A stretch of 64,000 nucleotides of DNA from Solibacillus merdavium. GTDB taxonomy: Bacteria; Bacillota; Bacilli; Bacillales_A; Planococcaceae. The position numbers were made by a program, and so were the translations under genes. The notes under the pieces were generated by a model, which saw nothing but the letters and a program-made list of their open reading frames with translations, was not told where the DNA came from and made no database searches. Within the stretch, counting starts at the first letter, position 1, and each line of letters starts with the position of its first letter. The stretch lies in contig NZ_JACSPW010000005.1 of assembly GCF_014836935.1 (NCBI RefSeq), forward strand, positions 124,001-188,000. Reading direction: 5' to 3'. This document shows positions 46,961 to 63,811 of this stretch, in pieces.

Positions 46961-47944
46961 CTATTCAGGCACATACATTTTTTGCAATGGCAGCAATGCC
47001 CTTGTATCATTTGGCATCAATTCGTACCATTCAATAATTAATTGCACGAGTTCCTCCAAATCAACCAATTTAACCGAATTTTGCTTCGCTACAATCATAG
47101 CTTGTGAAGTAAATCCACCCGTAGAGACAAATAAGCAATTTGCTTTTAACGGATTTGCTCCTAATAATTGCTGAATTTCAGGTGAACCAGCTGTTGATTT
47201 CCGATGCTTTACTTGCACTTTAATGATAGGCTGCTCAAAGCCAAATGCATCTTTATAAGCTAGAATATCAACACCACCATCTGGCCCCTTCGGACTTATT
47301 TTGACATTATATTTCATCGCTTGTAATAACCCGCCAACTAAATCCTGCAATTGCCATGGATCTAGCTTGTCTACCTTATCTTCAATCATTAGACGTGCCT
47401 TACTTTTTAAATCTTCTATGATTACTGTTTCATCATCTTCTGGAGGAACATCAGGATTTTTAACTATTGATGGATTAGCTAATAGTCCTTCAATTTCAGA
47501 TCCCCATTGATCTACTCTAAAAACAGTTAATACTGAACCCAAACTATTCTTAGCAGATTGAGATAACTGATCACGTGCTACGGTATTTGCTTCCCATTTA
47601 ACTTTTAAAGTATTTGGATAAGGATTCTCATTAGCATAATCATAATAATGAGCTTCTGTAACACTTCCAATGATATATTCACGTTTTTCTTTTGAATAAG
47701 AAATAATTCTATCACCTATTTCAATTTCACGACTAAAGCGCCAAACTTGGCTCACCCAGCTATTTCTCGTTTGTGGCTTTTCTTCCGAATACACTAAATC
47801 TGCCTTTGATAACAGCTGTTCTTTAGTTGTAAATAGCTTTGGGTTTTCTAGGTCAGGCCATCCTATTGATACAATTTTTTGTCTCAACCAAACAGGTATT
47901 AATTCGTTATTATCTCCAGCTCTAACCATCCACCATTTAGTCAA
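46961..47944 (-). CDS. Mrr-type restriction endonuclease with PUA-like N-domain
   Basis: A 327-aa protein. The N-terminal domain (WWMVRAGDNNELI... IGWPDL... EIGDRIISY... YIIGSVTEAHYY) resembles the PUA/EVE-like modules that precede some restriction nucleases and may read modified bases. The C-terminal Mrr_cat domain carries the PD-(D/E)xK core: GPDGGVDILAYKD and IIKVQVKHRKS (D...QxK, near residues 230-255). It probably cleaves modified foreign DNA (type IV-like restriction; inference). The start is TTG 47944 with GGAG nine bases upstream. No methyltransferase is adjacent, consistent with a type IV enzyme. Confidence 0.85.
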   Translation of the reverse strand: MTKWWMVRAGDNNELIPVWLRQKIVSIGWPDLENPKLFTTKEQLLSKADLVYSEEKPQTRNSWVSQVWRFSREIEIGDRIISYSKEKREYIIGSVTEAHYYDYANENPYPNTLKVKWEANTVARDQLSQSAKNSLGSVLTVFRVDQWGSEIEGLLANPSIVKNPDVPPEDDETVIIEDLKSKARLMIEDKVDKLDPWQLQDLVGGLLQAMKYNVKISPKGPDGGVDILAYKDAFGFEQPIIKVQVKHRKSTAGSPEIQQLLGANPLKANCLFVSTGGFTSQAMIVAKQNSVKLVDLEELVQLIIEWYELMPNDTRALLPLQKMYVPE

Positions 47945-48109
47945 AATAAACATCTCCATCACTTTATAATTTTAATAAATTTGTCATTTTAAAAATTCCT
48001 TAATCACTAATTTAATCCTATCTAAAACCCTTCATAAATGATAGGGATTTTTTGTATTTTTTTACCTATTTCAAAATTGGAAATTATGCTTCAATGACTC
48101 ACAAAATTA

Positions 48110-50420: not shown

Positions 50421-50725
50421 ATGGAATTTAAACAGGTTGGCTTTCTGAAAAGAGTTGCAAATGCTTTTACGGATAAAGAAAACTTAAAGACCCCCATCCT
50501 TATAAAAGAATCGACAGAAAGTGTTCAGATAATTGATCAATATAAAAAAGAATTAGAATATACAAAAGATGTAAAAGCTCATAAATCCCTTAATGAAAAA
50601 ATAAAGCTAATAGAACTTGGTTTAAAAGGTGAAAACAGCGTTCTTTTTGAATTACAAAATTCATTTCTACCATTACATATTCTTCACGATATTCGGGTCG
50701 CCCATAATGATTTAAAGGCTCAAAA
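50421..50725 (+). pseudogene. NERD-domain nuclease gene, 3'-truncated
   Basis: The first ~101 residues match Bacillales NERD (nuclease-related domain) proteins: a helical N-terminus (GFLKRVANAFTDKENLKTP), then GLKGENSVLFELQNSFLPLH and ILHDIRVAHNDLKAQ. The next expected residues (QIDF..., the nuclease core) are absent. The frame instead runs into the antisense of the DnaC-like gene and stops at 50798. The RBS CGGAGG is intact. A deletion or insertion joined the two at about 50720-50725. Confidence 0.75.
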
Positions 50726-51605
50726 TAATAAGTCCCTTAAAATATCATCATTAGCATTCTTCGCCAATTTTGCACGAATGTCCTCACTTGGCATTTGAAT
50801 TGGTACCGTCATCTTTTTAATACGACTTGAGATACGCCCACTAATATATATTTCATCTAACTGATCTTGTGTTAAATTCGAAGTAATTATTGTTACAAGC
50901 TTTTGATTCATACGAGTATCTAAAATTTGTGTAAATGTTGATTCAATCCACTCTGAGGTTTTCTCTACTCCTAAATCATCTAAGACTAGCACATTAACGC
51001 TCATAAATTTGTTAAGGATAGTTTGTGTAGTCCCTTCATTAAACGAAGCACGCAGCTCGTCAAATAGGTTTTTAGTTGTTATATAAAAACCTTCAACTTT
51101 AGTCTGCTTAATTAAAGCATTTAGAAGACTAATTGCGAGTCTTGTTTTATCTGACCCACGCTTCTCGCTATGCAGATAAAGCCCTTTTTCCTCCATTTTA
51201 AAACGCTCAAAATCTCTTACATAGTTAATGCATAGACGTTTTGCCATTGCAGCTATATTTTGATCCTTCTTATATTCATAAATATTAATATCAAATGAAT
51301 TAATCGTTACTGCTTCATAATCTTTTGGTACTTTAGCTGATTGAATTAATCGTTGAATCTTAATATTTGCTGCACAATCACAATAACGGGCAAATTCGTA
51401 ACCATTTGGCTTTCTTAAATATAACCAGCCAGTTCCGTCACAAGTCACATTTTTGAAGCGGACATTTCGTTGAGATTGTATTCATGATTATAGATCCTTC
51501 TGTTAAGACCTTCTCTTCCGAAGAAATATCAGATAAGTTAATTCCTTTCTCCAATAATCGTTCAACCATTTTCTCTGGTAATAAGCTTAAATCTATCTTT
51601 TTCAC
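50720..51605 (-). pseudogene. DnaC/DnaI-like helicase loader, frameshifted
   Basis: A replication ATPase of phage/ICE type. It starts at GTG 51605 (AAAAGGAG eight bases upstream) and reads KKIDLSLLPEKMVERLLEKG to CPLQK. An extra A in an A5 run near 51453 then shifts the frame. Removing one A restores CPLQNVTCDGTGW, the family zinc-knuckle/GTGW region. The rest is open to 50720. Walker A is degenerate (KRGSDKT instead of GxGKT), while Walker B (VLVLDDLG) is good. It is probably inactive. Confidence 0.75.
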
Positions 51606-51631
51606 AATTAGCGCTCCTTTTCTAAATTAAT

Positions 51632-52186
51632 TTAAAAGTCTGCAGTTGTATCTCCAACAAATATCACTTTTGAATGTGTAGTATCTTTCATCTCTTTAGA
51701 GACTTTCTGCTCTTTTAATGTTCCTTCGATAAAATTTTGAAAGTATGCAAACAATTGGATAACTGGGGCCTTTTTTATCTTAAGAGCTGTTTGATAACAA
51801 TCGTTCATAAGCTTAAGAACTGTGTCAGTGTTTACTCCTGTTGATAAAAAACTATTTATTGCTGCTTCATCTTTTTGTGTTAAATAGTTATGAATACTTA
51901 ACTTCAAATACAGATTTTTGATTTGTTTCAAAAACATGTCATCTACTGAATCACCCATTTCTTTCTTTATTTCATTTTTTGAATTGTATTCTTTGTTAGT
52001 AATCTCTGGTATTGCTGCTGTCATTTTGGACTTTCGAACATCCTTTTTGTCATCCTCCAAGGAGTCAAATGTCACTTTCGAAGAACCAATTTGTCCTGTT
52101 ACTTTATTTGGCTTAGGAATACACTCTTCGTATCCTTCTAATTCGTACCCTAGCTCATTTAAATCAGGAATTATACGTTTCGTGTA
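51632..52186 (-). pseudogene. Replication-module protein, 5'-truncated
   Basis: About 185 residues are open, ending VIFVGDTTADF. There is no RBS or credible start; upstream the frame runs straight into a terminator hairpin (52195-52218). The position directly before a DnaC-like gene suggests the C-terminal part of a phage or ICE replication protein, with a helical region near residues 100-180 (FLKQIKNLYLKLSIHNYL). The family was not firmly recognised. Confidence 0.5.
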
Positions 52187-52194
52187 CAAAATAA

Positions 52195-52218
52195 AAAACC
52201 CTGATATACAAGGGTTTT
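52195..52218 (-). terminator. Terminator-type hairpin at an element junction
   Basis: Stem AAAACCCT/AGGGTTTT with an 8-base loop and a following T-run on the minus strand. It resembles the hairpin at 48110-48135 in the same orientation. Confidence 0.65.
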
Positions 52219-52263
52219 GAACGTTCATTTGCGCCTATTTAGGGCTAAATGAAATCATATGTA

Positions 52264-52501: not shown

Positions 52502-53146
52502 TTAAGTTAGTTTTAATATTACTAAGAGTACTATGCCTACTCCAAATAAACTATATAAAATGTATTCTAATCTTTTCGATGATTTATGATGTTGCGCAGT
52601 TAGTGTATTCACATCCGTAATCAATCCATTTTGTAGCTTCTCAAATGTAGAATTTTGTTTTTGTAATAGTTCATTTGAAGTGTTTAATTTTTCGATTTTT
52701 TCGCTATTTCCTTCAATACTTTGTTGCAGAAACTGAATATTAGACGATGTGGTATTTTGTCGTTCTTCTAATAACGCCACCTTAGATTCAAGAACTTTGA
52801 TTTCTTGATTAATTAGTGTCGTTAAATTATTGAATTGGCCCACATTTTCTTTCAAAAATTGTTCTGTTCCCGAAAAATTGTCCTCAACCGTTGTATTAAT
52901 TTCTTCCAATCTTTTCTCATTAGCTTTAAATTGTTCTTTAAAATTCTTTTCTTGCGTTTCAAATTGTTTTTGTAACCCACCTAAAATATTGGCCGTTTCT
53001 TTCACACGATTTAATTGCTGTTCTACCAAAGCGTGCTGTTGTTCAATCTCATTTAAGAATACCGATGCTTTTTTTACACTTTTTATTTCTTGTCCTAATT
53101 CATTAATATACGTTTCCATCTTTTCTATCTGCTTTAATTCTCCCAT
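52502..53146 (-). CDS. Coiled-coil protein with C-terminal membrane anchor
   Basis: A 214-aa protein. Nearly all of residues 1-190 form a predicted coiled coil (heptads through LNEIEQQHALVEQQLNRV, LNTSNELLQKQNSTFEKL). A single C-terminal helix follows (YILYSLFGVGIVLLVILKL), ending two residues later, so it is a tail-anchored protein facing the cytoplasm. ATG 53146 uses GGAGGTG inside the 3' end of the helicase gene, with a 13-nt overlap, so the two are translationally coupled. It may tether or sense for the nuclease-helicase (inference). Confidence 0.75.
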   Translation of the reverse strand: MGELKQIEKMETYINELGQEIKSVKKASVFLNEIEQQHALVEQQLNRVKETANILGGLQKQFETQEKNFKEQFKANEKRLEEINTTVEDNFSGTEQFLKENVGQFNNLTTLINQEIKVLESKVALLEERQNTTSSNIQFLQQSIEGNSEKIEKLNTSNELLQKQNSTFEKLQNGLITDVNTLTAQHHKSSKRLEYILYSLFGVGIVLLVILKLT

Positions 53147-56100
53147 GGGTACTCACCTCCAACTCTTACTTCTTTAATTTGCGAACTTAAATCATTAATT
53201 AGTTCCCCATAAGACATTCCGTCTTTAAACTCTTTATAAATGATTTTTATTTCCTCATACGTATTAAATCCATTTAATATTAATAGTTCACTTAAATCCG
53301 TTTTTTCATTTGGCTTTAAAAAGTCATTGCCAATATTTAAAATAGAAACTAAAAGTTCTCTTCTCCATTCAGGTTCCAATTCATTAATATAAGAAATTGC
53401 TTGTGATAAACGCTTTTTTGAATCATTAGTTAATGCCCCTGTATTAATTAACGATGTAATGCCTTCAATTAGATTTAAAGTAGGATCATTTTTATAACTT
53501 TCTAAAAAACGACTGATTGTTATCGAAAGATCCTTTATTTCTGGTTCGTTTTTTTTACTTAAATTATCGTTAGTTTCAACGTAATAAATACGCCACCAAT
53601 CTTGAATTTTCTTAGGCTTAGATATCGTATTCTCTAAGAAGTATACGTCATCATTCCGTTTGAAATAGACTTCTAATTTATGTTGAAAATCATCAGAACT
53701 CTCAAAGTCCAACACGTTTTTATACATATTTTTTAAAGATTGCTTTCGTGAATAAATAACATTATCGTTATACCATTTCAATAAAATATAACTAAATTTA
53801 TAAAGTGTTGTTACATTATCAATCGAATAAACTGTCAAATACTCTTTAAGTTCAGAGTTTTTGTATATTGCTTCTAATGTAAATAAAGCATCGTATTTTT
53901 GTATATGTTTAAAAACACTACTTTGAATAGTATCTTCATCAAAGGGATTTAGTGAAACGATTATTTTGCTAGTTTTCCAATCAATCATCCAATCATTCAC
54001 TAGACCCAAAAGTGCTAAACGATATACAATTTTTTCATTATCTCCGCGATTTGCAATTTGAACAGCGGAATGGCCTGCTAAAAATTGCTCATAAAATTCA
54101 CAAATCGAATTAGTTTCCTCATCAATATTCTTTAACCCTTTCTTCATTAAAAACATAACTTTATTTAAATCACCTTGCAAAACCCTTGTAGTAGATTCAA
54201 CTTCTTCTAGTTTCGTATCTATTCCAAATAAAACTTGATGCTGAAAAGTCGTTAATGTATCTTTTGTAAACAAAATAATACACTTTGAATCTCCTCGATC
54301 ACGTCCAGCACGTCCAGCTTCTTGATAATAAGATTCTAATGAAGATGGAATTCCATAATGGATTACTGTCCGTATATCTGGTTTATCTATTCCCATTCCA
54401 AATGCTTTAGTTGCAACGAGCACATCTAACTCGTTATTCATAAATGCCCGTTGCATCGAGTCTTTGTAGCTTTGAAAATCTGTTTCTTTAAAGTCTTTAG
54501 GAGCACTTCCTGAATAAAATCCACTATTAACTTTCAACTGTGTACGTAGTTGGTTACTAAGCTTATAACAGCCTTCATTACCTCCTGCAAAAGGAGTGAA
54601 TACTAACAGTGGCTGATTATTGTCTAGGTTTTGGTAAACAATTTCCGTTAACTTTTGCTGTTTTTCAAATTTACTTGCCTCAATCACTTCAAACGATAGC
54701 TCTTTTCTCGTAAAATCACTTATTGTTATTACATCTTTATTCTCTATACTAAGCTCATTTCTAATATCTAATAAAACTTTAGAAGAAGCAGTTGCCGTTA
54801 ATGCCATAAAAATAGCAGTTGGTGCATATCTTCTAACAGTGTTTGCCAAGGCTAAATAGGATGTTCTGAAGTCGTGACCCCATTCTGAAATGCAGTGTGC
54901 CTCGTCTATTACTGCGTAAGCAATTTGTTTCTTTACTTGAATCATTTGCAATCTTTCTCTGAAATTCTGCTGTTGAAATCTTTCTGGAGAAATTATTAAA
55001 AATAAATATTTCCCTTCAGTATAGTCATCTAATCTTTTAGAACTGATTTCAACTGGAAGATCTCCATTGATATATTCAGCACAATCAATATAATGTTTAA
55101 ACTTTAAATTTTGGATTTGGTCTACCATTAATGACTTAATTGGTGCTACTACAAAGCTAATGGCTGGTTGAAGGAACGTACACATTTGATACGTTAATGA
55201 TTTGCCTCCGCCTGTTGGTAGTAATCCAACTGTATGATTTCGATTTAAAGTATTGATAATTATTGATAGTTGACCAGAATTGAATTCTTTATACCCATAA
55301 AGAACTTCCAATACATATTGTAACGAACGTTTATGTTTTTCTTCTTCTAAATGATACTCAATAATATAGTTAGTATTGATCACTCTATTATTTACTTCTT
55401 CAAAATAATCTTCTCTAACATAAATTATTGAGGAATCTACTAATAAATCATCCCAATATTTCCCGACAAGTAGATCAATGTGAAGAGCACTTTTTGTTCT
55501 CTTAACACCAATATTAATTTTAGGGAATGAAATCTCTAGATTTAATAAAAACGCAATTTCAATCATCCATTTTTGTAAATCTTCTAAAGCAATGGTAAAC
55601 GACTCAATTTGTTGATCTTTATTTACAGTAAATGACCAATCATCGTCGTTTAAACTAATAACCTCATTTTTTAAAAGCTCAATTAATACCATTTGAAAAC
55701 GGTATATCTCCGTTAATTGAGTATGAAGTTGATACTCATTAGGATTTTGTAAATATGTCTCAAACATTGATATATTTCCTCTGTACAATTTATATTGAGA
55801 ACGTAAAATACTCATTAAACCTTTATAATCTTTATCAGCAACTTGTTTAGTTGTTAAACGTACTACTTCTACCCCTGCTGCTTTTAAATGTTTATCTCGA
55901 AATTTATCTAACTTTTTTTGATTATTATCTATATGACTTTTCCCATCAATTTCTATTACAACTTTTAAAAAAGGATTATAAAAATCCACACTTTGCTTTT
56001 CTAAATCAGAATTATTAACAATTGCAGTTATTGGACATTCTGCAATAAATAAATCTGCTAAAAAAGGAGTTTTCCCAAAATTTTTTCTCAAATCTTCATA

Positions 56101-56391
56101 AAAGACTTTGGCAGGATAATTTAATTTTTCATCATCCCCCTTAATACTTTTATTCCAATTTGTATGTTCTGGGTGGATAATGCGTATATTTTTCATATCA
56201 ATTAAGTAATTTCTACTTAAACCTAATCTATCTAATATATAGGGTGTCGCAAAAGAAGGGGTTCCGCGCATAATAATATTTTGTATGATTGAGAAAATTG
56301 GATTGTCATTACTTTCAAATTTTTTTGGTGGGATATTTTTAATAATGAAGTGATTATTCAATTTCGCATATCCTGAATTGTAAAAATGCAT
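53134..56391 (-). CDS. RecQ-family helicase fused to a DUF559/Vsr-like nuclease domain
   Basis: A 1085-aa protein. Near residues 130-190 there is a PD-(D/E)xK domain of the DUF559/Vsr type (SVDFYNPFLKVVIEIDGKSH... DKFRDKHLKAAGVEVVRL). A RecQ helicase core follows: Walker A LPTGGGKSLTYQ near 395, DEAH in VIDEAHCISEWGHDFR near 500, ALTATAS, and motif VI QEAGRAGRDRGDSKC near 695. The ~350-residue C-terminal region is not recognised. ATG 56391 follows GGCGAG. Nuclease-helicase fusions of this sort occur in phage-defence loci. Its gene is first in the operon with the membrane coiled-coil gene. Confidence 0.82.
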   Translation of the reverse strand: MHFYNSGYAKLNNHFIIKNIPPKKFESNDNPIFSIIQNIIMRGTPSFATPYILDRLGLSRNYLIDMKNIRIIHPEHTNWNKSIKGDDEKLNYPAKVFYEDLRKNFGKTPFLADLFIAECPITAIVNNSDLEKQSVDFYNPFLKVVIEIDGKSHIDNNQKKLDKFRDKHLKAAGVEVVRLTTKQVADKDYKGLMSILRSQYKLYRGNISMFETYLQNPNEYQLHTQLTEIYRFQMVLIELLKNEVISLNDDDWSFTVNKDQQIESFTIALEDLQKWMIEIAFLLNLEISFPKINIGVKRTKSALHIDLLVGKYWDDLLVDSSIIYVREDYFEEVNNRVINTNYIIEYHLEEEKHKRSLQYVLEVLYGYKEFNSGQLSIIINTLNRNHTVGLLPTGGGKSLTYQMCTFLQPAISFVVAPIKSLMVDQIQNLKFKHYIDCAEYINGDLPVEISSKRLDDYTEGKYLFLIISPERFQQQNFRERLQMIQVKKQIAYAVIDEAHCISEWGHDFRTSYLALANTVRRYAPTAIFMALTATASSKVLLDIRNELSIENKDVITISDFTRKELSFEVIEASKFEKQQKLTEIVYQNLDNNQPLLVFTPFAGGNEGCYKLSNQLRTQLKVNSGFYSGSAPKDFKETDFQSYKDSMQRAFMNNELDVLVATKAFGMGIDKPDIRTVIHYGIPSSLESYYQEAGRAGRDRGDSKCIILFTKDTLTTFQHQVLFGIDTKLEEVESTTRVLQGDLNKVMFLMKKGLKNIDEETNSICEFYEQFLAGHSAVQIANRGDNEKIVYRLALLGLVNDWMIDWKTSKIIVSLNPFDEDTIQSSVFKHIQKYDALFTLEAIYKNSELKEYLTVYSIDNVTTLYKFSYILLKWYNDNVIYSRKQSLKNMYKNVLDFESSDDFQHKLEVYFKRNDDVYFLENTISKPKKIQDWWRIYYVETNDNLSKKNEPEIKDLSITISRFLESYKNDPTLNLIEGITSLINTGALTNDSKKRLSQAISYINELEPEWRRELLVSILNIGNDFLKPNEKTDLSELLILNGFNTYEEIKIIYKEFKDGMSYGELINDLSSQIKEVRVGGEYPWEN

Positions 56392-56442
56392 AGGTAATCT
56401 CGCCTTTCTTAAGCACACAAAATCAATTTCACTTTTATTTCC

Positions 56443-56470
56443 ATTATATACAAATTAGTTTAATTCTCAA
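56443..56470 (-). promoter_or_regulatory. Promoter of the nuclease-RecQ operon
   Basis: TTGAGA (56465-56470) and a perfect TATAAT (56443-56448) with 16-bp spacing on the minus strand. Confidence 0.6.
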
Positions 56471-56495: not shown

Positions 56496-56517
56496 TGAAG
56501 TCCTCAAAAGGACTTCA
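56496..56517 (-). terminator. Terminator upstream of the nuclease-RecQ gene
   Basis: Stem TGAAGTCCT/AGGACTTCA with a 4-base loop and T8 on the minus strand. It separates the DrmAB-like operon and LRAT relic from the RecQ operon. Confidence 0.8.
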
Positions 56518-57018: not shown

Positions 57019-58764
57019 TTATTCTTCATCCAGTAAATTATCGAAAAATCCAAAGTTTTCATGTGGGTTAATATTTAGCAATGTACGACGGTCTAGTAAT
57101 TGATTCCCCCACTCACATGATGTTTCTGAAACATGTGAGCAGCTATGACATGCCGCTGCATTTGCAGACAGGTTAAATTGGAATTTACCGTCAGAACAAT
57201 TCGGATCAGACGAACAATATTGCATTCGTTCAATTGCTCTTAAAACAATTGGGTATAGCAACTCTGGCTTAGATAGAGCTGTTAAACCTCCTAGACTACC
57301 TTCTGAATCACCTGATGCTGTATAAATAAATACGCCGTGCATTGAGCTATCTACATATAATCGTTCTTTTAACGATGTAGTGCCATATCCCGAATGGGCA
57401 GCTAATTCCTTAAGTAATGCATGGCTAAACGTGTGTAGTAAGATATGGCGCCCCATCAATGGCAATGGCTCGTTACCAAATTCAGCACGCTGATGATTAT
57501 ATCTTTCAATAATGGTAGCTGTGATGGTTTCATTTTGTTCCCATAAAGCTAACTTTCTTACATCAAATACAAAGAAAATGCCTTCACCAAAATTTTGCAC
57601 AGCTGGTAGCCAATTTTGTTTTGGGTTCTGCATAATACGATTCATATGTACATCACCCTCTTCAAAACGATCGATATAATCTATACGACTAAACCCTTTA
57701 AGTACCTGTATTTCAGGAACTGAATCTACACGATGAATAGCCGTAAAATAAGATTGTAGCTTTGGATGAATATCAATTTTCTCTGACTTAAATTGAATAT
57801 TAGTTTCATTAAAATATGGCTGTGACAGTGTATTCCATTCTTGCTTTCGAATAGATTCGTAGCTTTGCTCTACATTTAACTCATCACCCATTAATAATCT
57901 TTCAAGATCAGCATATGCATTTTGGTTAATATGGTAGCGCTTTGCTATTCTATCCAAGGCCTTTTCCTTATTACCTGCGTCTAAATATTCCTCTCTACTA
58001 ACTTCAAGTTCTGGTAAGATAGTGGCCAATGGATTGTCTCCTGTAGTTTCTGTTAATGGAACTTTTAAAAAGCTTAGTACATGCGGCGAATAAATATTCG
58101 ATGCTCCTCGTAAAAAAGTTCGCATAGTGTTTTTACACAACTTTGGTTGTTCATCCTCTAGTTCTTGAGTATGCTTCTTCTCTAACCAAGGTGATTCATT
58201 CGTACAATCAAACAAATGCTTATCCTCATCATCTGGTTTCATAATTTTCCCTAGTGAACGAATTTGCTGGCAGTGATTACATTTAACAGCTAAATCAGAT
58301 AATGAGCCACTTTCACTATTACGTAATAATTGTAGACTTGGTTTTTCGCAGCTCTCCCCTTTATGCACCCATTTATCATAAGGAAAATCACTAATATGGC
58401 CAAAATTACATACTGTTACAAAACGACTTGGATAAAGCTTTACATCGCCCCTACCTGCTTTTTCACATGACCAACAGTGCGAATTATTAAATGTCGTCAT
58501 TTTCCCACATTTAGGGCAGATTTTCCAACGTGGGAATCTTACGGTTTTAACTTTAATTTTATCTGTTTGTTCATTCAATATACGTACATGATCGACTTTT
58601 AAATATTTTGTAATACGCTTATCAAAATCCTTTAGTGCTCCATGAGTAGCCCATAAATCTGCTGCTAAAACCATGACGCTCTCATCTAATAGGTCGAGAA
58701 TAGCACCTGGCCCGGAATGATATATTAGCTGAGATGGGCGAATCTTTTCTTCATTATCTAGCAT
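57019..58764 (-). CDS. drmB: DUF1998 protein, DrmB-like
   Basis: A 581-aa protein. The N-terminus (LIYHSGPGAILDLLDESVMV) and a cysteine-rich zinc region (CPKCGKMTTFNNSHCWSCEK near 85; CNHCQQ near 165) are followed by a C-terminal DUF1998 core. This contains HTFSHALLKELAAHSGYG, GDSEGSLGGL and paired cysteines (CSSDPNC; CHSCSH). This is the DrmB architecture of DISARM and related defence helicase loci. The ATG overlaps the drmA-like stop by 1 nt (TAATG). No PLD-nuclease DrmC follows; a broken LRAT gene lies there instead. Confidence 0.8.
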   Translation of the reverse strand: MLDNEEKIRPSQLIYHSGPGAILDLLDESVMVLAADLWATHGALKDFDKRITKYLKVDHVRILNEQTDKIKVKTVRFPRWKICPKCGKMTTFNNSHCWSCEKAGRGDVKLYPSRFVTVCNFGHISDFPYDKWVHKGESCEKPSLQLLRNSESGSLSDLAVKCNHCQQIRSLGKIMKPDDEDKHLFDCTNESPWLEKKHTQELEDEQPKLCKNTMRTFLRGASNIYSPHVLSFLKVPLTETTGDNPLATILPELEVSREEYLDAGNKEKALDRIAKRYHINQNAYADLERLLMGDELNVEQSYESIRKQEWNTLSQPYFNETNIQFKSEKIDIHPKLQSYFTAIHRVDSVPEIQVLKGFSRIDYIDRFEEGDVHMNRIMQNPKQNWLPAVQNFGEGIFFVFDVRKLALWEQNETITATIIERYNHQRAEFGNEPLPLMGRHILLHTFSHALLKELAAHSGYGTTSLKERLYVDSSMHGVFIYTASGDSEGSLGGLTALSKPELLYPIVLRAIERMQYCSSDPNCSDGKFQFNLSANAAACHSCSHVSETSCEWGNQLLDRRTLLNINPHENFGFFDNLLDEE

Positions 58765-61700
58765 TATTTCTTCACCTCTATTTCAATTGTTCCTTCTACA
58801 TTTCGTAGTGCCATCATGGCTGGTTGGGTAACTGGACTTCTACCTTCTTCACCAAATTGGCGTAAAAGTGACGGTTTTCTATTTTTTAGGTTTTTCTTAT
58901 AACTTATTGTGTTCGCATCAGGATATGCATCTACTACCTGCTCCCACCATTCAAGTAATTTCTCAGTGGCCTGCTTTAATTCAGTCGTATCAATTTCCGT
59001 TGCGTCTGCACGTTTTAAAAATTGATCAATTAGCGCCTCTACTTCTTCCGTTCTCGAAAATTTATTAACCGCATTTTCTGCTCCTAATTCCGGAATCATT
59101 TGACGTAGCAACCCTACTAACGCCCCTCTTAAGCCTTTATATAGTGCACCACTTGCAAAAGGTGTCACACTCATTGCTTCTACATGACGGTACAATGCCT
59201 GATGATATGCACGGAATTGTTCAAAGTGCGATAAATCTCGTGAGCGCATTGAATTCAAAGTTGTAATAACCAATCCTGGATATTTACGTCCTACACGACT
59301 TGTGGCTTGGATATATTCAGATGTCGTTTTCGGCTGGCCCTGTACGACCATAACACCAAGACGATCCACATCGACACCTACTGAAATCATGTTTGTTGCA
59401 AGAACGGCATCTAATGCATCCTTCTCCGCATACTCTTTTTCCATTTGAGCTAATAGTAATGGAATTTCATACGCTTTTTTACGACTCGTCATTTCTTCTA
59501 CTACTAATTCATGGTTAAATTCTTTTTTAGGATCTAATAAATCTAATCTACTTACAATTTCATCCTGGAATGTTGTTAACATGCCTGAAAGCTCTTTTAC
59601 CGTATTAAAATACCCCAGCATTGTATAGTAAGGATCCATCTGTTTAGACAATCTTGAACGAGTAATCGTCGTCAAAGCTGCGAATAATTGAATAGCTTGG
59701 ATTTTATTACTTACACCCGGAGAACACACACCTACATATAAACGACCAGGCTTTTCAGTTGTAGCGACCTCATGAGCAACAAATGTATCGTTTTGCTTTT
59801 GAACAGCTAATGGGAATTGTAAATAATCCCTTCCGTAGAGATGTAAAATTTGTTCCTTTGCACCTCTAATTGTGGCTGTAGATGCAATGACTTTTGCACG
59901 TTTTCCGCCATTTGACGTTAGTAAATCTACTGCCACTTCATACAGACCTGTTAAAGACCCTAGTGGACCCGAAATAAGGTGTAACTCATCTTGAATAATC
60001 AATAAAGGTGGTTTTAATCTTGATACTTTTTTATACCCACGTTTAGAGCCTTCCATTTTATAAGCAAAGCCCTTCTCTGGATGATATAAGTTCTTTCGTC
60101 CAAATAATTCGTGCATATCTTTCTTCCATGGTAACTGTGCTATTTTATCCACGGTACCGATTAATAATGTAGGAACATGTTGATAAATCGCTTCATCTAC
60201 CGTATAAATCGGCAACTTTTTATAAAATAAACAAGATGGCTCATGGCAACCAATATGCTGTGTTTCACTATCACTAATCAAATAATCCCCAGGTGTTAGC
60301 TCAGTGCCACACCACGGACAGTTCAATAATTGCATTGGATTGCCACTTTTAACTTCTTGACCGTCCATTAACATTTCGAGCTTTTCTTTCGCTTCTTCTA
60401 GTTTATTGGGTGATGATTCTCCACCTATCCATAAACCAATACTAAACGGTAGCTCACCATATAACTGTACATTTTTTAAACGAATATCCTCCGCAGCACA
60501 AATTAGAGCTGCCGCGCGTTGGAATTGCTGTGTAGTCAGCAAACGTAATGTGTATCGCATAAAAATTGTAATACCTGCGTAGCTACTAACATCATTTACA
60601 TCACCGGCTAATCGACGGTGCGCCATAGCATATGCTGCAACGCCCAAGTAGGCCTCTGTTTTCCCCCCACCTGTAGGGAACCAAATTAAATCAACAACTT
60701 CACGGTCCTCATGATTTTCATCTGATATGCCTGCTACATTCATTAATACGAAAATAATTTGGAATAAACGCCAGCTACCATTATAGACAGGTGCTACTCT
60801 CTTACCAGATGTTCTATATTGAACTGCAACAGCTGACATCGCACGCTGTTTAGACATTGCCTCATTCGCAAATCGAAATGCCTTATTTTCTAAAGTATCA
60901 TCACCAGCTACGACAAGTGTAATACCTTCTTTTAAGCGTGCAATAATTTTCTCGATCTGTTCAACATTGCGCTCAGCTTCTTGCTTCAAATGTAAATCTA
61001 AACCTTCAATATGCTCTTTTTGTAAAACTAGCCATCGCTCGTAAAAATAAGGTAATTTTTCTAATTTTTCTTTAAGCTCATTTAAAGGTAATTTACTTAA
61101 TGCCTCCATCTCAAACGCTTCGTCATGAATAGTCGTATGCTCTACAACTGGAAGCTCATAAAATGGTAACCACGTCGTCATAATTTCCATCGTTTTAGAT
61201 GACTCATGCCAATCTACGCCAACACCATGTCCTATTGCTACCTCTTTATACTCACGGTACAAAAGTTCATCCGCCACATTAAATCGGTCTGCTACCGAAT
61301 GGAATGTTGCTACATCCTGTTTATTTACAGTTACTTTCAATGCCGTTTGAAACATAATCTCGAATTGCTCAGGATAACTTTCACGAGTGTAGTTATTTAA
61401 TAAGAAAATACTAATATGGTAAAGACCATTACGTTTAGTCCATGAATAATGTATTTGACCCGGGAATTGTTCATTAGAGTCCGCTTTCTTCTTGTAGTAA
61501 TTTAGTTCACCTTTCTGCACAGTTTCTTGCAAATCAATCTCCCATTCAAGCTGATGAGGTGTTCTCGCATGCGTTTTCCCTTCATACGTCGCCCAACTAG
61601 CATCAATCTTAATAGGATTTAAATTATTCATTTTGAAGCTAAAGCCCATGCTTGAAGGACGGAACATTTGTCTAGAGCTTAAACGATCTTCAACCGAATC

Positions 61701-62090
61701 TTCCTCTATGATAACGGCTGTTTCTATTCCTAGCTTTCTTTCATCCTCAACACTACCAGTAGAACCAAATGGTACAAGCTTTCCCGTTAAGTAAAGCTGC
61801 ATCGGTCGTTTAAAGCTCCCTAGCTCTTCATTTTCCTCAAATGGTCCAACTAAATAGCGACTGAGTTCATTATGTACAGTTTTACGCGCTCCAATATAAT
61901 CGGCGGATTCATTATTCGCTATGGCCTTAAGTGTAATTTTATCGTCTGTCACAACAAAAACATCAGAATACTCCTTGACGATCCTAAGCATTGTAGATTT
62001 CACTTCAAATAATATTTTAAAATCTTTTACAAACAGTTCTTGATGCTGCTGTAAGTAATCAAAAAGCTTTTTAGCTCCTGGTTTCATCAT
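58764..62090 (-). CDS. drmA: DrmA-like superfamily 2 helicase
   Basis: A 1108-aa helicase. The core begins near residue 465 with DLIWFPTGGGKTEAYLG, then FMRYTLRLLTTQQFQRAAAL, a characteristic DrmA stretch. A four-cysteine insert follows near 590-620 (NCPWCG... CHEPSC), then motif II as QDELHLISGPLGS (near 700), ASTATIRGA, and motif VI ATSRVGRKYPG (near 930). The N-terminal 400 residues hold no domain I recognise. It overlaps the upstream helicase by 4 nt (ATGA) and drmB by 1 nt, so all three are made together. Confidence 0.82.
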   Translation of the reverse strand: MMKPGAKKLFDYLQQHQELFVKDFKILFEVKSTMLRIVKEYSDVFVVTDDKITLKAIANNESADYIGARKTVHNELSRYLVGPFEENEELGSFKRPMQLYLTGKLVPFGSTGSVEDERKLGIETAVIIEEDSVEDRLSSRQMFRPSSMGFSFKMNNLNPIKIDASWATYEGKTHARTPHQLEWEIDLQETVQKGELNYYKKKADSNEQFPGQIHYSWTKRNGLYHISIFLLNNYTRESYPEQFEIMFQTALKVTVNKQDVATFHSVADRFNVADELLYREYKEVAIGHGVGVDWHESSKTMEIMTTWLPFYELPVVEHTTIHDEAFEMEALSKLPLNELKEKLEKLPYFYERWLVLQKEHIEGLDLHLKQEAERNVEQIEKIIARLKEGITLVVAGDDTLENKAFRFANEAMSKQRAMSAVAVQYRTSGKRVAPVYNGSWRLFQIIFVLMNVAGISDENHEDREVVDLIWFPTGGGKTEAYLGVAAYAMAHRRLAGDVNDVSSYAGITIFMRYTLRLLTTQQFQRAAALICAAEDIRLKNVQLYGELPFSIGLWIGGESSPNKLEEAKEKLEMLMDGQEVKSGNPMQLLNCPWCGTELTPGDYLISDSETQHIGCHEPSCLFYKKLPIYTVDEAIYQHVPTLLIGTVDKIAQLPWKKDMHELFGRKNLYHPEKGFAYKMEGSKRGYKKVSRLKPPLLIIQDELHLISGPLGSLTGLYEVAVDLLTSNGGKRAKVIASTATIRGAKEQILHLYGRDYLQFPLAVQKQNDTFVAHEVATTEKPGRLYVGVCSPGVSNKIQAIQLFAALTTITRSRLSKQMDPYYTMLGYFNTVKELSGMLTTFQDEIVSRLDLLDPKKEFNHELVVEEMTSRKKAYEIPLLLAQMEKEYAEKDALDAVLATNMISVGVDVDRLGVMVVQGQPKTTSEYIQATSRVGRKYPGLVITTLNSMRSRDLSHFEQFRAYHQALYRHVEAMSVTPFASGALYKGLRGALVGLLRQMIPELGAENAVNKFSRTEEVEALIDQFLKRADATEIDTTELKQATEKLLEWWEQVVDAYPDANTISYKKNLKNRKPSLLRQFGEEGRSPVTQPAMMALRNVEGTIEIEVKK

Positions 62091-63811
62091 TTACTGCTAA
62101 CCTCCTCTAATAATAGCCATTCCTTTGTAAAGCGTGAATATGCTAGTGGTTTACCATGTGTATGAATATTGGCTGAAAAATCAACAATCTTACAATTTTC
62201 TGTTCCACCAAATTTTGGTCCTCGAAGACCACGACCCACCATTTGCTCATATAGAACCATACTCGAGGTAGGTCTACAAATTAATAAATGATCAACTTTT
62301 GGGGCGTCAAAACCCGTTGTTAATACGCCATAATTAAATAAATACTGAATTTCTTTTTTCTTAAATGCCTGGATATGCATACGACGGATTGCTTTTGGTG
62401 TTTTGGCAGAAATACATGCTGCTTTCTTTCCTATTGCATTTAAAACTGTAGTTAAAAATTCAGCGTGTTCAACTGTACATGCATAAACTAATACTGAGCT
62501 ATCTAATGGTAAACCCAACATATAATCTATTATTTTCAGATTTCTTTCTCTGTTATTAGACAGATCCCTTAAAAATTCACTAGAAACCTCGCCATCTATA
62601 AACAGATCTTCATGCCATTCAATCGGTTCATCTTTGAATAATAGATATTGTGGCTTCGCTAAATAGCCCTGTTCCTGGAAATACAATAATGGATTTAATT
62701 TATACTCATTCTTTTCAGGTAATTTGGGGCGTATTAAGTTAGCCTGAAACTGCTCGACTAAAATACTTGTCTGATCCATATTTCGACCAGGTGTAGCTGT
62801 TAGTCCACAAATCGGGAATAAATCCTCTCCTACAATTCTCTTTGCATAATCGATTAAATCATTATAACTAGCCGCTGTTGCATGATGTGCTTCATCAATA
62901 ATCATAGCGCCACAATTTCTAATTATTTCTTCAAAAGCACTATCACCGGAATTAATTCTTGATACTATTTGTTGGATGCTTCCTACAACAACCCCACCTA
63001 CTAAATCATCCAATTCAACAGTTGAACCTCCAAAATAGCGATAAACTCTCAACGCATAAGCAAATTCACGTTCTTGCCACATATCTGATATACAAGCTAT
63101 CGCCTGTTCACAAAGTTCCTCCCCTTGTGCAATCCAGATCATATATTTCCCTTCTGCAAAGCGTGGCTGTAACCAATCGATAAAGCTTTCTACAGCAATT
63201 CGTGTTTTACCACCACCTGTAGGTAATGTCACGATACAACGTGTTTTCTCTTGTTGTTGATTCAATACTTCTAGCATCTTTTGCTTTAAACTTTCTTGGT
63301 AAGGAACTAATGGTGGAATTATTTTTCTTGGCTCGATATCTGTAACAGCTGCTGCACGTTCAGTGCGATCATTTTCAATACCGGCAAAAACTAGTGGGAA
63401 TTTTAATGTAGTAACGAAATCTCTTGCCCAACGTTTTCCTGGTGACCATTTCTTAGTTGAGAGCGGAGTGGCCATATAACCAGGTGAAGTAATCTTTCTT
63501 TTACTATCTGGATTTCTTTCATAAAGTGCTACTAAATCTTTTACATCTAACCTTCTTAATAGATGTAGTCTTAATTCTCGCACTGCCTCACTTGAACCCA
63601 TAAATAATTCAGAGCCTTTTTGTACAACTAAAATTTTTGCAAGTTCTTCCTCTGTCAGCTTGTTTTCTCCTAATGTATCTAAAATAGAAGTTAGTTGACT
63701 ATAATGCTCTGTACCTACTAAATCCATTAAAATTTTATATGGTATTTTATACTGATTGATTAATAAACTTACTGCTTGTTGAATCTCACTTTCGTATGGA
63801 AATCTAGCCAT
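62087..63811 (-). CDS. DEAD/DEAH-box helicase, first gene of the DISARM-like operon
   Basis: A 574-aa superfamily 2 helicase. A ~180-residue N-terminal extension (helical, no known domain) precedes Walker A TLPTGGGKTRIAVESF (near 195), DEAH in AMIIDEAHHATAAS (near 300), GLTATPGR and motif VI EQMVGRGLRGPKFGG (near 525). It is of the type III-restriction/UvrB-like class. AGAGGGTG lies about six bases before the ATG. It is not the SNF2 helicase (DrmD) of class 1 DISARM. It leads the operon with drmA- and drmB-like genes. Confidence 0.8.
   Translation of the reverse strand: MARFPYESEIQQAVSLLINQYKIPYKILMDLVGTEHYSQLTSILDTLGENKLTEEELAKILVVQKGSELFMGSSEAVRELRLHLLRRLDVKDLVALYERNPDSKRKITSPGYMATPLSTKKWSPGKRWARDFVTTLKFPLVFAGIENDRTERAAAVTDIEPRKIIPPLVPYQESLKQKMLEVLNQQQEKTRCIVTLPTGGGKTRIAVESFIDWLQPRFAEGKYMIWIAQGEELCEQAIACISDMWQEREFAYALRVYRYFGGSTVELDDLVGGVVVGSIQQIVSRINSGDSAFEEIIRNCGAMIIDEAHHATAASYNDLIDYAKRIVGEDLFPICGLTATPGRNMDQTSILVEQFQANLIRPKLPEKNEYKLNPLLYFQEQGYLAKPQYLLFKDEPIEWHEDLFIDGEVSSEFLRDLSNNRERNLKIIDYMLGLPLDSSVLVYACTVEHAEFLTTVLNAIGKKAACISAKTPKAIRRMHIQAFKKKEIQYLFNYGVLTTGFDAPKVDHLLICRPTSSMVLYEQMVGRGLRGPKFGGTENCKIVDFSANIHTHGKPLAYSRFTKEWLLLEEVSSK

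Follow-up and report, generated by a model that had tools for sequence, protein, structure and literature searches.

In many defences built on a helicase and a nuclease, self and non-self are distinguished by the modification or the sequence of the DNA. Zorya consists of a membrane motor with a coiled-coil tail and the helicase-nuclease ZorD. In RqlHI, a RecQ-like helicase with a phosphoribosyltransferase domain is genotoxic unless a DprA-like partner is present, and this domain is C-terminal, according to the available part of the report (PMC4670107). The ShosTA system, as described in the part of its report at hand (PMC9122126), combines DprA with a phosphoribosyltransferase and has no helicase, nuclease or tether. 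In a DUF4041 protein from an E. coli functional selection, a membrane-anchored coiled coil carries a DNA-binding/cleavage, nuclease-like domain (PMC9519451, available in part), and some helicases of the YprA family, as found in ARMADA, Druantia and DISARM, are fused to Vsr-type nucleases (PMC12458937, available in part). The comparison literature also covered BREX-related (PMC12839542) and Dnd (PMC10853773) systems, likewise in partial texts. Here, we describe a gene pair in Solibacillus merdavium that encodes a nuclease-RecQ helicase and a small coiled-coil protein ending in a predicted membrane helix, referred to below as the tether. The pair lies in a stretch of 64,000 nucleotides (contig NZ_JACSPW010000005.1, positions 124,001 to 188,000), which we call the window. 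A sequence-only reading of the window had drawn attention to this pair, and that initial observation is confirmed by our analysis. The constant pairing of the two genes, a branch with DprA and phosphoribosyltransferase parts, a zinc-finger branch and a second helicase with a related tether, all described below, go beyond it.

A coiled-coil gene with one hydrophobic helix at most five residues from the C-terminus was found directly downstream of the helicase in 19 of 19 loci from at least four phyla, with Pseudomonadota, Rhodothermota, Bacteroidota and Bacillus-type isolates as named hosts. In 17 of these loci the start of the partner overlaps the stop of the helicase, by 13 nt in ten loci, 4 nt in five and 1 nt in two, and the other two have gaps of 20 nt (G393) and 102 nt (Salinibacter). 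For the earlier reading, a helicase that occurs mostly without the coiled-coil gene would have spoken against the module; a helicase lacking this gene was found in none of the 19. In a phylogenetic tree, the 19 members were united in a group that excludes five other RecQ proteins (support 91/95). Relatives from Thermus, Thermomicrobium and Deinococcus fell outside this group and were not counted among the 19; two enteric rows were kept in the set and other enteric copies were excluded.

We expressed the features of the tether as a rule (140–300 amino acids, exactly one hydrophobic helix ending at most 15 residues from the C-terminus, and proline plus glycine at most 8%), which was fixed only after the first partners had been seen. 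Applied to 290 distinct, overlap-filtered open reading frames (ORFs) of at least 100 amino acids from the window and 23 loci, the rule selected 21. Of these, 18 accompany group members and two accompany fringe relatives, namely Thermomicrobium and Thermus (in Thermus, helicase and partner are separated by an annotated transposase); the last one follows a UvrD-like gene. It selected none of the 93 ORFs in 25 other RecQ loci, which are short at about 4 kb each (median 4,002 bases). We reject the view that the pair is an ordinary RecQ gene followed by a chance ORF, given the constant pairing, the absence of selected ORFs from the 25 control loci and the separate group in the tree. The data support a real, conserved two-gene module.

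The module is sporadically distributed. Full-length members were present in five of 261 genomes of the window's own family, its own genome included, and a search at the level of the order, also of 261 genomes, returned the same five. Within its phylum, 4 of 398 genomes (own included) had a full-length member, and another 8 of the 12 matches were short nuclease-like ORFs; within its class, the figures were 2 of 398 (own included) and another 2 of 4. Such short ORFs (119–197 amino acids, nuclease-like, without a helicase) were excluded from the pairing count. These ten (L047–L054, L067 and L068) match the nuclease profile and are apparently stand-alone DUF559-like proteins. The contigs of GTDB yielded five loci from 99 candidate stretches. 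Among plasmids, 242 records matched, eight of which cover at least 80% of the query, and the other rows among the 40 listed of the 242 cover 32–52%; six of the eight were inspected, and H7 and H8 (split by IS1) were left out. The enteric type occurs in 7 of 5426 E. coli genomes, four times on plasmids and three times on chromosomes, and two of these seven carriers were inspected in detail. By annotation, the genes stand in the same order on another four enteric plasmids and on a second plasmid of Rhodothermus.

The whole pair measures 3.9 kb and is intact. Its features, with helicase residues numbered from the GTG start, are as follows:

52502 to 53146, minus strand: gene of the tail-anchored coiled-coil partner (tether), 214 amino acids
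53134 to 56391, minus strand: gene of the nuclease-RecQ helicase, 1085 amino acids from the preferred ATG; the ORF is open to a GTG at 56418 (1094 amino acids)
53134 to 53146, both genes on the minus strand: overlap of the helicase and tether genes, 13 nt
55804 to 55998, minus strand: DUF559/Vsr-like PD-(D/E)XK nuclease segment (residues 141–205; PF04480 match)
54199 to 55314, minus strand: RecQ-family helicase core (residues 369–740) with LPTGGGKS Walker A, DEAH and QEAGRAGR
53137 to 54198, minus strand: C-terminal region of the helicase (residues 741–1094), mostly helical in models, its end being the proposed dock for the tether
53012 to 53146, minus strand: conserved N-terminal segment of the tether (residues 1–45), the proposed helicase-binding end
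52505 to 52561, minus strand: predicted C-terminal transmembrane helix of the tether (residues 196–214; 19-residue Kyte-Doolittle mean 2.33)

The true start of the helicase is probably the ATG at 56391 rather than the GTG at 56418, because a Shine-Dalgarno-like GAAAGG can be read 11 nt upstream of the ATG and similarity to the relatives sets in at about this position. The 13-nt overlap of the two genes agrees with what the sequence-only reading had reported. That reading had also described a DUF559/Vsr-like nuclease fused to a full RecQ core. The fusion and the helicase domain hold, with 32.3 bits against a cut-off of 20.6 for Pfam DUF559 (PF04480) at residues 141–205 and 273.5 bits against 219.8 for NCBIfam recQ_fam (TIGR00614) at residues 369–740. 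The word "full" does not, as the housekeeping RecQ equivalog TIGR01389 matched the helicase core only and scored 294 bits against 640.2, below its cut-off. The window protein is therefore a member of the RecQ family, but not a housekeeping RecQ.

The nuclease is probably active, because the counterparts of its putative catalytic residues (D145, E156, D158, G159 and H162; numbers are 7 lower in the 13-member nuclease alignment) are invariant in 13 of 13 aligned N-terminal regions. An AlphaFold2 model of the helicase built from six sequences was of modest quality (mean predicted local distance difference test score, pLDDT, 68.8), and its helicase core matched the folds of RecQ, BLM and RECQL5. 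The modelled nuclease segment (pLDDT about 50–80) consists of strands at 145–148 and 153–158, a helix at 165–180 and a strand at 184–189, which is the order expected for PD-(D/E)XK folds. The C-terminal region of about 350 residues had no Pfam match, and a separate model of it (pLDDT 67.5) had no significant Foldseek match in the PDB (best E 0.14).

In the tether, the single hydrophobic helix makes up the last 19 of 214 residues, and the rest has a heptad-like hydrophobic period that was reached by none of 1000 shuffles. Periodicity and hydrophobicity thus bear out the earlier description of a protein that is nearly all coiled coil with one C-terminal membrane helix. All 19 partners have 0–5 residues after the helix, as in a tail anchor, and between 0 and 30 of 1000 shuffled sequences equalled their heptad-like periods, the worst case being G430. 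Conserved columns among 17 aligned tethers were confined to the first ~45 residues, and the coiled coil varies in length. Matches of the tether to DruC, LmuB, JetC, SMC, fibrinogen and others reflect weak, generic coiled-coil similarity and were set aside.

Next to the pair lies a DISARM-like set, as the earlier reading had stated: DrmB, DrmA and a RadD-like helicase occupy 57019–63811 of the window on the minus strand, as a continuous series of genes that overlap or abut. DrmB (438.4 bits against 240) and DrmA (988.6 against 950) exceeded their cut-offs, and the RadD-like helicase stayed below its own (140.7 bits against 720). Elsewhere, BREX genes adjoin the copies in G017 and Paludibacter, a protein near the G218 copy matches MkoA of Mokosh, and pieces adjoining the G070 copy match TmtA. 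The copy in E. coli ET846 has a type I restriction-modification system on one flank and Mza on the other; a plasmid copy in Klebsiella (K. quasipneumoniae) has an Hhe neighbour and one in Raoultella a type I restriction subunit. Weaker neighbours were the PADLOC candidates PDC-M27 and ZacB in Calidifontibacillus, PDC-M72B in a metagenome-assembled genome (MAG) labelled Helicobacter pylori, and HerA in G261, and the neighbours in G217 and G774 match only GajB-type and similar UvrD models. As named defence genes (DISARM, BREX, Mokosh, Mza, Hhe and type I restriction-modification) adjoin several copies, the neighbourhood is suggestive of a defence role.

Some branches of the family carry extra parts. 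On E. coli plasmids, on Raoultella plasmids and in the MAG labelled Helicobacter pylori, a label that was not checked, a DprA gene lies upstream and a HAD domain is present at the N-terminus. The HAD domain was above the cut-off in both proteins scanned (E. coli and the MAG), and the phosphoribosyltransferase of the MAG scored 24.2 against 28.8 in Pfam, below the cut-off. In the E. coli plasmid member, residues 254–358 of the fused protein match the PADLOC ShosT profile (1.4e-7), and its DprA matches ShosA (6.7e-68). The DprA-bearing rows cluster in a single clade (100/100), whose sister is the DprA-free Paludibacter (97/93), and this suggests a later addition. The branch may shed light on the repeated association of RecQ-like helicases with DprA. 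In another branch, an N-terminal topoisomerase C4 zinc finger was found in three genomes of the window's phylum (two by Pfam scan, G430 by eye). At the fringe, Deinococcus wulumuqiensis (pDrdI 257349–267184, L080) has two helicases, a 391-amino-acid coiled coil and a HAD-DprA fusion in one gene run.

Two altered copies were also seen. In a Klebsiella pneumoniae locus (L065; NZ_CP055510.1, 276453–288138), the DprA and HAD parts are kept and little of the helicase is left; transposase genes come after it, and no tether is annotated. In the Paludibacter MAG (L057, 7428–11378), the helicase is split into two ORFs (10877/10983) by a sequencing fault or as a broken gene, and the tether ORF is intact.

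How does the pair compare with the described systems? RqlHI and PsyrTA share with it the RecQ-family core, and in one branch of the nuclease-RecQ family a DprA gene and an end resembling a phosphoribosyltransferase are found as well. In that branch, however, the HAD-phosphoribosyltransferase part is N-terminal and not C-terminal as in RqlH, and the words "nuclease" and "coiled" are absent from the main text of the RqlHI report, as far as this was available (PMC4670107). At E up to 0.1, four Pfam families were listed for the window helicase, none of them a phosphoribosyltransferase, and no DprA lies beside the pair, the single match in its own genome (E up to 1e-5) being on contig C11 and the window on C52. 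ShosTA resembles only the E. coli plasmid relative, through the ShosA and ShosT matches given above; neither was found among the matches listed for seven window proteins. The window pair is thus neither RqlHI/PsyrTA nor ShosTA. Zorya shares a membrane coiled coil and a helicase-nuclease, and the tethers of Salinibacter and Rhodothermus match ZorA models weakly through their coiled coils. The window tether differs: it has a single helix, at the C-terminus, and matched neither ZorA nor a MotA-type Pfam family. The E. coli DUF4041 protein differs in being one polypeptide with another nuclease, and no helicase is named in the available text (PMC9519451). DISARM genes adjoin the window pair, but the YprA helicases of ARMADA, Druantia and DISARM are not RecQ helicases and have other partners, and "RecQ" and "transmembrane" are absent from the available main text (PMC12458937). 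In its way of working, the pair would come closest to a reduced Zorya or to the coiled-coil nuclease at the membrane found by functional selection (PMC9519451).

The sequence-only reading had proposed a membrane-tethered, DNA-degrading immune module. The conserved pair and the predicted tail helix (each in all 19 loci), the invariant nuclease residues and the defence neighbours stand behind this proposal; the membrane location, the complex of the two proteins, the substrate, polarity and cleavage, and protection of the host are inferred. We give about an even chance to the pair being a membrane-tethered, DNA-degrading anti-phage or anti-plasmid module. Its recurrence in distant bacteria, frequently next to defence genes, makes it a probable form of immunity that has not been described before. 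In such a module, the small protein would be anchored in the cytoplasmic membrane by its C-terminal helix and project a self-associating coiled coil into the cytosol, where its conserved N-terminal end would bind the extreme C-terminus of the nuclease-helicase. The tethered enzyme would meet foreign DNA arriving or replicating at the membrane. Its motor would load on a single-stranded tail, gap or fork and unwind 3' to 5', the substrate and polarity established for RecQ, and the DUF559 nuclease would cut the exposed strand. As the conserved pair contains no methylase, self DNA would probably be spared by location and DNA structure and not by modification. In the enterobacterial and Helicobacter-labelled branch, the DprA-like protein and the HAD-phosphoribosyltransferase end would probably add single-stranded DNA sensing and an abortive arm like that of ShosTA or RqlHI. 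A helicase-nuclease that always comes with a predicted membrane tether, and without its own methylase, makes location a testable principle of immunity. Because the pair is small and intact, mutants offer a direct test of its nuclease, its motor, the tether helix and the docking ends.

The idea of docking ends comes from Rhodothermus marinus (pRMAR01 57632–61115; L088, 7633–11116), where a UvrD-like gene, with a gene for a separate tail-anchored coiled coil behind it, is convergent with the nuclease-RecQ pair. The UvrD-like protein has 987 amino acids; its matches to AAA/UvrD helicase families are weak and stay below the cut-off throughout (Pfam E 2e-4 to 4e-3), and its tether is the 21st ORF selected by our rule. 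The two Rhodothermus helicases are alike only in their last ~80 amino acids (blastp E 2e-6; next best segment E 1.9), and the two tethers are alike in ~80 N-terminal residues (33%, E 4e-7). The helicase-tail score was reached by none of 2000 shuffles and the tether-head score by none of 2000 heptad-preserving shuffles. As unlike helicases share tails while their tethers share heads, the simplest reading for this one species is that tail and head may be a docking pair that moved jointly between helicases. Tentatively, and with distinctly less than even confidence, we extend this to a tail-anchored coiled coil that serves as a plug-in membrane adaptor for unrelated helicases (superfamily 2 for the nuclease-RecQ protein, superfamily 1 for the UvrD-like protein) through a transferable C-terminal docking segment. 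Tethered helicase-nucleases would then provide a general, methylase-free and location-based immunity, to which the DprA/phosphoribosyltransferase and zinc-finger parts would be optional additions.

Several observations weigh against these proposals. The docking inference comes from Rhodothermus alone: a profile of the C-terminal regions of 17 members did not find its UvrD-like protein, and a four-member profile reached it at E 0.013 only, above the inclusion threshold. The last 110 amino acids of the window helicase scored 24 against the UvrD-like protein, which is background, and those of other members 19–47, with shuffles reaching 52. The fringe Deinococcus coiled coil has no membrane helix, and such a helix is thus not needed in all relatives. 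The 91/95 fork that separates the group from other RecQ proteins is below the star mark of the tree tool itself, and prevalence is low both in the window's own family (5 of 261 genomes) and in E. coli (7 of 5426). Finally, with profiles not scanned, no named defence neighbour was seen by annotation in Salinibacter, E. coli plasmid L009 and Haliscomenobacter, or by eye in G430, G393 and L059 (Bacillus AFS006103).

The absence of a methylase from the pair would also suit a latent toxin. The nuclease-helicase could be able to attack the chromosome and be kept inactive at the membrane by the tether, until an infection upsets the membrane or the complex, sets the toxin free and thereby kills the cell, as in abortive infection. 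The overlap of the genes could serve to keep the two proteins at a fixed ratio; antitoxin genes, however, usually lie upstream of the toxin gene, and the partner gene here lies downstream of the helicase. Relatives with DprA and a phosphoribosyltransferase-like end do resemble RqlHI, which is genotoxic without its DprA-like partner, but that toxicity maps to the phosphoribosyltransferase domain (PMC4670107, available part), for which the window protein has no Pfam match, and the only DprA match of its genome is on another contig. We regard this restraint of a toxin as possible but rather unlikely. A machine that maintains or takes up mobile-element DNA, by repair or by processing plasmid or conjugative DNA at the membrane, is very unlikely in our view. 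Many copies are on plasmids, one E. coli plasmid copy is near DnaB-like helicase and DNA ligase genes, integrase-like ORFs seen by eye lie to the right of the window, and a helicase with DprA and a membrane location recalls DNA uptake. Against this stand the sporadic distribution and the position of copies among named defence genes, and no recurrent competence or transfer gene was noticed beside the copies by annotation and eye, without a dedicated search.

A different question, compatible with each of these readings, is whether the pair is a variant of a system already described under another name, such as the "DpdF" of PADLOC or a defence system named after 2023. The PADLOC scan used the 2023 release and seven window proteins (for the helicase, the best 25 of 27 families). 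As the sequence-only reading had supposed, no named system for the pair appeared in PADLOC, NCBIfam or Pfam among the matches listed, and no account of it was found in the full-text literature searched, which covers few subscription papers or preprints. Since this coverage is partial and the PADLOC release dates from 2023, the pair may already have a name. The best PADLOC profile for the window helicase, PDLC02868 (311 bits), is labelled DpdF, after the RecQ-like protein of the Dpd (7-deazaguanine) system. In the E. coli plasmid member the match spans nuclease and helicase (profile positions 19–1002 of 1078), so the builders of this profile had met such proteins. However, we reject identity with DpdF: the NCBIfam DpdF equivalog scored 171.3 against a cut-off of 550, the window protein has a fused nuclease and a tether partner, and the PADLOC label is silent on the tether. 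One "DpdF" profile thus covers proteins of different architecture, which calls for caution in its use. Overall, we consider an existing name unlikely.

Two further features lie upstream of the pair:

56443 to 56470, minus strand: promoter-like TTGAGA-16-TATAAT, 11 of 12 matches, in a region where the number of such sites equals chance
56496 to 56517, minus strand: terminator-like hairpin between the pair and the DISARM-like genes (3 found against 1.3 expected)

The sequence-only reading had given the pair its own TATAAT promoter. The motif is present, but the region contains 24 promoter-like sites against 23.5 expected, so that it is weak evidence, and we reject it as a sign of a separate transcription unit.

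To the right of the window on the same contig (C52), two tyrosine-integrase-like ORFs were noticed by eye (L082, 2014–3261 and 6892–8148), which suggests an integrated island. Within the window, a DnaC/IstB-like loader and a second ORF that by eye resembles a phage replication protein (50720–52228, minus strand) are possibly a prophage replication relic. Of the several nuclease relics that the sequence-only reading had placed beside the pair, one candidate was noticed: an ORF at 46961–47962 (minus strand) resembles, by eye only, an Mrr-type restriction endonuclease.

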